Shown here one piece after another: positions 51,080 to 53,497 of a DNA stretch of 64,000 nucleotides; position 1 is the stretch's first letter; each line of letters begins with the position of its first letter. Both the position numbers and the translations under genes were made by a program. Under the pieces are notes generated by a model. It was not told where the DNA came from, searched no databases, and saw only the letters and a list, made by a program, of their open reading frames with translations. The DNA comes from Planctomycetota bacterium. GTDB lineage: Bacteria > Planctomycetota > Planctomycetia > Pirellulales > Pirellulaceae. The DNA lies in NCBI GenBank assembly GCA_017303505.1, contig JAFLCP010000015.1, positions 1 through 64,000 on the forward strand, read 5' to 3'.

Positions 51080-51145
51080 GAGCCGCGGAGGCTGTGTTGC
51101 TGCTTTCGCCTAAGGCAGCAGAAGAATTCGCATTAAATCACTTTG

Positions 51146-51174
51146 AGGAGCCACTATCGCAGTGGCTCCTTTTT
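51146..51174 (+). terminator. Rho-independent terminator after membrane dipeptidase
   Basis: Perfect 10-bp stem (51146-51155 with 51161-51170), five-base loop and a run of T (51170-51174). It lies 66 bp after the dipeptidase stop. Confidence 0.88.
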
Positions 51175-51305: not shown

Positions 51306-51333
51306 TTGACAGAGCCCTCACTACCTGTACAAT
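51306..51333 (+). promoter_or_regulatory. Sigma70-type promoter
   Basis: TTGACA at 51306-51311 and TACAAT at 51328-51333, spacer 16 bp. The -35 is a perfect match, the -10 matches five of six. Transcription would start near 51340 and give a leader of about 440 nt for the lysine-rich protein gene. Confidence 0.7.
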
Positions 51334-51782: not shown

Positions 51783-52733
51783 ATGAACGCACTGCACACA
51801 TCGAAAACATCGCACACATCGAAACCATCGGACTCTTTGAAAACATCGCACACCTCAAACGTTACCACCATCGACCCGCAACCCTTATCGGCGTCCGCCA
51901 ACGCTGATTCAGTCATCCACGAAACAGCATGCTGCCAAAGCATTGAGCCCACGAAAGAATCGGCTCACGCGTTGGAACGCCGCACAACGCCGGGAAACCT
52001 TCGTAGCAAGTGGTTATTTTTGTCGGCCATTAGCGCCGCGATTACAGTCGCCATCGCGCCATTATCGATCGGCGCCTTTCATCGAGCAACGGACTCTACT
52101 CCCGAGGTACCGTTAGTCCAGGAAGAAACGAAAACCGTACCAACCCTCTCGGAAGAAGATATTGATTTTGCGTCTTTGTTTGAGCCGAATGACACCAGTC
52201 CCCAGTCGACCGCTGCCATGTTCTCCCAAGAACAACAGGCTGATTCTGAGCTGGTGGATTCTGGGCGCACTGGCGATTATGTCGCACTGCGCGAGCCAAC
52301 GGAGGATGGAGAACGAGTCCGCATTGTGGTCTTTGAGCCCAATCGCGACATCTACATCCACGAAAGCGATCATGACGGGATACAGGTCCGTATCCGCAGA
52401 TATCTCTTTGGAACCAGTACTGAGCAAATCGTTTCGGCGTCTGATATCCAGGATCTAAAATCTCAATCGCAAGATGCATTTGATACTTATCGAACGCATA
52501 TCGACAAAGCCCGACTCCTGAGCCCAGCGGTCTCGATTTATCCGGCGGAAGAAGTCGCCTGGCTTGAACCGAGCGGCTTTCTGACGGCCCTATCGATCGA
52601 TGAACCGAAGAACAAGAGCGATAAAGGTAAGACCAAGAAGGAGCCTAAATCGGTCAAGAAGGAGTCTTCAGCAAAACAAACGGCCAAGAAAAAATCGACA
52701 ACTACCAAGAAGGGAGAAGCGAGTCCAAAGTAG
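51783..52733 (+). CDS. Lysine-rich membrane protein ending at in-frame amber codon
   Basis: 316 residues from an ATG at 51783 with AAGGA eleven bases upstream; the longer frame from 51636 is disfavoured because it lacks a good site. The N-terminal part is Ser/Thr/His/Lys-rich (H-T-S-K-type repeats), a single membrane segment lies at about 75-98, followed by an acidic stretch and then a Lys/Ser/Thr-rich tail. The frame ends at TAG 52731-52733, but continues open and in phase for 138 codons of the same composition (52734-53150). It may be a nonsense mutation (AAG to TAG would restore Lys), a pseudogene, a readthrough product, or a naturally truncated protein. Function unknown. Confidence 0.6.
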   Translation: MNALHTSKTSHTSKPSDSLKTSHTSNVTTIDPQPLSASANADSVIHETACCQSIEPTKESAHALERRTTPGNLRSKWLFLSAISAAITVAIAPLSIGAFHRATDSTPEVPLVQEETKTVPTLSEEDIDFASLFEPNDTSPQSTAAMFSQEQQADSELVDSGRTGDYVALREPTEDGERVRIVVFEPNRDIYIHESDHDGIQVRIRRYLFGTSTEQIVSASDIQDLKSQSQDAFDTYRTHIDKARLLSPAVSIYPAEEVAWLEPSGFLTALSIDEPKNKSDKGKTKKEPKSVKKESSAKQTAKKKSTTTKKGEASPK

Positions 52734-53150
52734 AGTTCCGGCAAGAAGCCATCGAGTAAAGAAAGTGCCTCCACCAAGAACGGCAGTAAAGATAGCTCTA
52801 AGAACAGTGCCAATAAAAACGTAGAAAAGAAGACAGCGAACAAGAAGCCTGCCAGCAGCAAGGAAAAAATGAAGGGCGAGAAATCGACGAGCAAAACGGC
52901 CAAGGAGCGGCAGTCTAAATCGAACGGCACAAAATCAGATTCGAAAGATGCCAAAGCTCCCAAGAAAAGCCGTGCGAAGGATAAGCCTGACAGCAAATCC
53001 ATGTCAGCGAACACGAGCCGCTTTGGAGAAACGGAATTCGGTGCTGAACCAGTGCCAACCATTTCGACGGAAAGCAGCCCTACCAAGATCTCCGAGGAAC
53101 CTCCACAACGCGACCAATCCCGACTGGCGCTTATTGGGATAGACGCTTAG
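52734..53150 (+). other. In-phase continuation of the lysine-rich frame after TAG
   Basis: 138 sense codons directly after the amber codon, ending at TAG 53148-53150, in the same frame. Composition is Lys/Ser/Ala/Asp-rich (K-K-x-S-S-K, T-A-K-E-R and similar), like the segment before the stop, and it changes to a normal composition only near the end. It has no good start of its own except an ATG at 52869. This supports one original gene of 455 codons. Confidence 0.65.
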
Positions 53151-53406: not shown

Positions 53407-53497
53407 CTTCCTGCTTCCTGCTTCCTAATTCCTAATTCCTGAACCCTGAACCCTGAACCCTGAACACTGAACCCTGAACACTGAACACTGAACACTG
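53407..53497. repeat. Heptamer tandem repeat next to YbgC stop
   Basis: Thirteen consecutive seven-base units (CTTCCTG, CTTCCTA, ATTCCTG, AACCCTG, AACACTG types) from 53407 to 53497. The three AACACTG units nearest the YbgC stop are the most uniform and correspond to AGTGTTC of the array at 17543 read on the other strand. The element's first 20 bp (53487-53506) are nearly identical to 17533-17552. It lies between converging genes. Confidence 0.85.

Follow-up and report, generated by a model that had tools for sequence, protein, structure and literature searches.

In the window, a stretch of 64,000 nucleotides from a bacterium of the Planctomycetota, whose gene content also points to a planctomycete, a gene for a lysine-rich protein is interrupted by an in-frame TAG codon at 52731..52733, beyond which the same frame stays open for 138 codons up to the next stop codon (52734..53150). 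The TAG probably represents a recent nonsense mutation, or a variant of the strain, in a dispensable low-complexity tail, so that the 316-residue product ends normally at this codon. All features of the window described here are located on the forward strand.

Translation of 51783-53150 yields 316 residues, the TAG, 138 sense codons and a stop at 53148-53150 (gct TAG). The longest mechanically defined ORF comprises 365 aa and begins at an upstream in-frame GTG (51636), but the ATG at 51783 with the motif AAGGA just upstream is the likelier start. From this ATG, the ORF (51783..52733) encodes a Ser/Thr-rich N-terminal stretch, a membrane segment, a small domain predicted to be extracytoplasmic, and the first 42 residues of a Lys-rich tail (52605..52730), 16 of which are Lys according to the shuffle and composition analysis. 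The initial annotation had placed the TAG in frame with 51783, and translation and reading of the sequence confirmed its coordinates and the codon context AAG-TAG-AGT. The further claim that the 138 open codons have the same Lys/Ser-rich make-up was borne out, with about 30% Lys on either side of the TAG.

The tail is former or current coding sequence, as the same frame carries a coding signal on both sides of the TAG in its Lys fraction, its convergence of Ser codons and its synonymous codon score. Across the TAG, the Lys fraction runs through 0.38, 0.33, 0.30, 0.30 and 0.30 with no break at the stop; the drop comes some 90 codons later, close to 53000, and the frame then closes with a short end of different composition. 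AGY and TCN serine codons differ at both of their first two positions. The tail contains 28 Ser codons in frame, 14 of each type, versus 7 and 6 in the other two forward frames. A similar picture is obtained for Lys (27 versus 13 and 7), for hydrophobic residues (12 versus 27 and 26) and for stop codons (0 versus 3 and 9), and synonymous codon choice scores positively in the TAG-bearing frame only. The tail was open in frame in only 20 of 2000 dinucleotide shuffles; taken alone, this is modest evidence of coding because the tail DNA is A-rich and T-poor. That the part after the TAG is translated independently into another small Lys-rich protein, for example from the ATG at 52869 (93 aa), is very improbable. 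Although AAGGAAAAA, which resembles a ribosome-binding site, precedes this ATG, a region so rich in A and G would be expected to contain a motif of this kind by chance, and the Lys-rich coding signal begins right after the TAG, well upstream of 52869.

The frequency of such extensions was determined in about 850 kb of the genome, in which 445 of 450 non-overlapping ORFs of at least 200 aa had a closed extension. Among these 445 ORFs, extensions of at least 138 codons nearly always consist of the following gene, read in the same frame; in three cases no other ORF of the list covers the extension. In two of these three, the tail is unlike the end of the preceding gene when compared by eye and could contain a short gene of its own. 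The tail at 52734-53150 is the one clear, compositionally continuous extension in this set, as judged by eye. The extension after the TAG is a real and uncommon feature, and one nonsense change suffices to make it.

Because no other of the 445 ORFs has a compositionally continuous extension this long, and because the tail remains open and compositionally biased, the region could also be read as the product of leaky or programmed amber readthrough, with a minor long-tailed form of about 455 residues beside the 316-residue form. This account is distinctly unlikely, and the readthrough-regulated extension proposed in the initial annotation found no positive evidence. TAG terminates 136 of the 450 ORFs of at least 200 aa in the 850 kb sample, and the gene for release factor RF1 is present (457.7 bits versus a curated cut-off of 423.25). 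The genome is 99.2% complete and gave 77 tRNA hits; the suggested check for an amber-suppressor tRNA was run, and no CTA anticodon was found among the genes read from these hits by ARAGORN. Amber suppression or reassignment was rejected on these grounds. A structured readthrough element was likewise rejected, as the RNA 3' of the TAG folds no better than its shuffles (z 0.31) and has no match in Rfam. In addition, no relatives with a conserved TAG were found, and the titles and abstracts listed by a literature search on bacterial readthrough contained no comparable case. Nothing speaks in favour of special decoding of this TAG. The locus shares with programmed stop-codon readthrough the open, protein-like stretch after the stop, but differs in that neither a suppressor tRNA nor a stimulatory RNA structure, which is common, though not universal, in such systems, was found. 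With amber reassignment, in which TAG encodes an amino acid genome-wide or pyrrolysine, it has in common the TAG within a coding frame, but TAG is a regular stop in this genome, RF1 is present and no CTA-anticodon tRNA was found. It is very improbable that inefficient readthrough at this TAG has been maintained as a means of setting how much of the membrane-anchored, Lys-rich extracytoplasmic protein carries the short tail and how much the long one.

The tRNA survey of the genome (G000) provided further observations. A partial tRNA-like match of 46.5 bits on contig C65 (L110, 8260-8318) received no ARAGORN call, and its anticodon loop, read by eye, would give ATG, not CTA. Two long tRNA arrays are present on contigs C2 (L097:230-5816, 32 genes) and C14 (L098:223-4286, 24 genes). 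Their anticodon order is largely shared, they are additional to the dispersed tRNA set, and they look like arrays found on mobile elements or phages.

The age of the stop was approached by simulating neutral change with a simple substitution model without indels. The probability that the tail stays free of stops fell from 0.79 at 0.02 substitutions per site to 0.38 at 0.1 and 0.09 at 0.3, and its combined count of Ser and Lys decreased from 55 to 47 by 0.1 substitutions per site. Since the tail is both open and rich in Ser and Lys, two properties that erode under simulated neutral change, it has undergone little such change: the stop is young unless the tail is still being translated. Ongoing readthrough would indeed leave an equally intact frame and composition. 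Because no sign of a readthrough machinery was seen, the data are explained most simply by a young nonsense allele and next by an assembly error. Such an error at 52731-52733, the true gene being uninterrupted and encoding about 455 residues, is unlikely; it would look identical to a nonsense mutation, one wrong base is enough to produce it, the assembly is a draft of 295 contigs, and the tail acts as intact coding sequence in every respect. However, single substitution errors are rare in an assembled consensus, and the TAG lies outside any homopolymer. That the short form is the natural one and its tail has decayed, as also considered in the initial annotation, is disfavoured by the lack of frame decay in the tail; a short form that lost its tail recently is possible. 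Among the three options offered there, a nonsense mutation in a once-continuous Lys/Ser-rich frame is therefore best supported, and the other two are weaker.

The Lys-rich stretch provides many targets for nonsense mutation, as codons immediately upstream of the TAG can be turned into a stop by 0.60 single changes each on average, versus 0.35 for codons elsewhere in the gene. When local codon use is combined with a transition bias assumed to be 2:1, the weights for the ancestral codon are about 0.68 for AAG, 0.16 for TCG, 0.11 for GAG and 0.05 for CAG. An A-to-T change from a Lys codon, as initially suggested, is plausible from these weights, which allow a weak inference, but the neighbouring AAG, which had been cited for it, is itself no evidence.

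The ancestral state of the TAG codon was taken from composition alone because no orthologue with a sense codon was found. Among 241 genomes of the bacterial family, which include no other genome of the genus, no orthologue of the protein was detected and only its small domain recurs; the part upstream of the TAG gave weak partial matches only, the best with an E value of 3e-4 over a fragment. A scan of the collection of genome contigs revealed no relative, and plasmid records gave no match. Locating the gene by synteny also failed: the stretches around the M19 dipeptidase gene in relatives, which reach about 1.5 kb only, contain no copy of the domain, and wherever a genome lists the thioesterase neighbour as well as the M19 dipeptidase, they are on different contigs or far apart.

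Within the protein, HTSK-like short repeats occur in the N-terminal part, with an 18-bp tandem repeat at 51794-51853. The hydrophobic membrane segment WLFLSAISAAITVAIAPLSIGAF (52011..52079), recognized by eye in the translation, has positive residues on its N side, and by the positive-inside rule the small domain and the Lys-rich tail would be located outside the cytoplasm. There, one may guess, the tail or domain binds anionic envelope polymers. The domain (52305..52511) comprises about 65 residues and was found at 42.8 bits (E 1.2e-11) with a profile built from nine relatives, from which the window sequence was left out. Its pattern, ESxxxGIxVTI...ELKxKxxEAxxLYxxY, recurs in the bacterial family of the source and matches no Pfam entry; neither half of the protein, before or after the TAG, had a match in Pfam or NCBIfam. 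In relatives, the domain follows low-complexity Gly/Ser regions, M56/BlaR1-like membrane peptidase regions or repeat regions, as judged by eye, and it sits at the end of membrane proteins, M56/BlaR1-like ones and others. An in-genome search revealed one further copy in the genome of the window, which by eye is part of an M56/BlaR1-like protein (L190, contig C23, 5472-5669).

Upstream, a terminator-like hairpin (51145..51171), identified by consensus match only, follows the M19 dipeptidase gene and would separate it from the TAG-bearing gene. A sigma-70-like match, TTGACA-16-TACAAT (51306..51333; 11 of 12 positions), is a possible promoter, in a region where the number of such sites is not above that in shuffles. 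Downstream, a tandem heptamer, CCTGAAC/ACTGAAC, lies between the TAG-bearing gene and the thioesterase gene (53438-53497), and the rest of the genome contains the exact 22-mer CCCTGAACCCTGAACCCTGAAC from this repeat on contig C188 only.

The original product would have comprised about 455 residues and been anchored in the membrane by a single helix. Its Ser/Thr-rich N-terminus would lie in the cytoplasm, and the helix would be followed by a small domain outside the cytoplasm and a disordered tail rich in Lys and Ser. One of the tail's sense codons would have become TAG through a single-base change in the recent past, or as a variant of the source strain, and translation would now terminate there via RF1. 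Because the resulting 316-residue protein would retain the anchor, the domain and 42 tail residues, the loss may be nearly neutral; the change is presumably recent and the short product still functional. The locus resembles recent nonsense mutations, incipient pseudogenes and truncated alleles in its single stop in an otherwise intact frame, its composition signal past the stop, and its lack of a frameshift and of a special decoding factor. It differs from them in that only a low-complexity tail is lost here and the remaining protein may be fully functional, and in that the ancestral codon is deduced from composition, not from an orthologue.

A nonsense allele in a dispensable tail is ordinary, and exemplifies a premature stop that automatic annotation takes as the natural end of a gene. 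The domain at 52305-52511, which is recurrent in the family and has no Pfam entry, is more useful for annotation than the stop.
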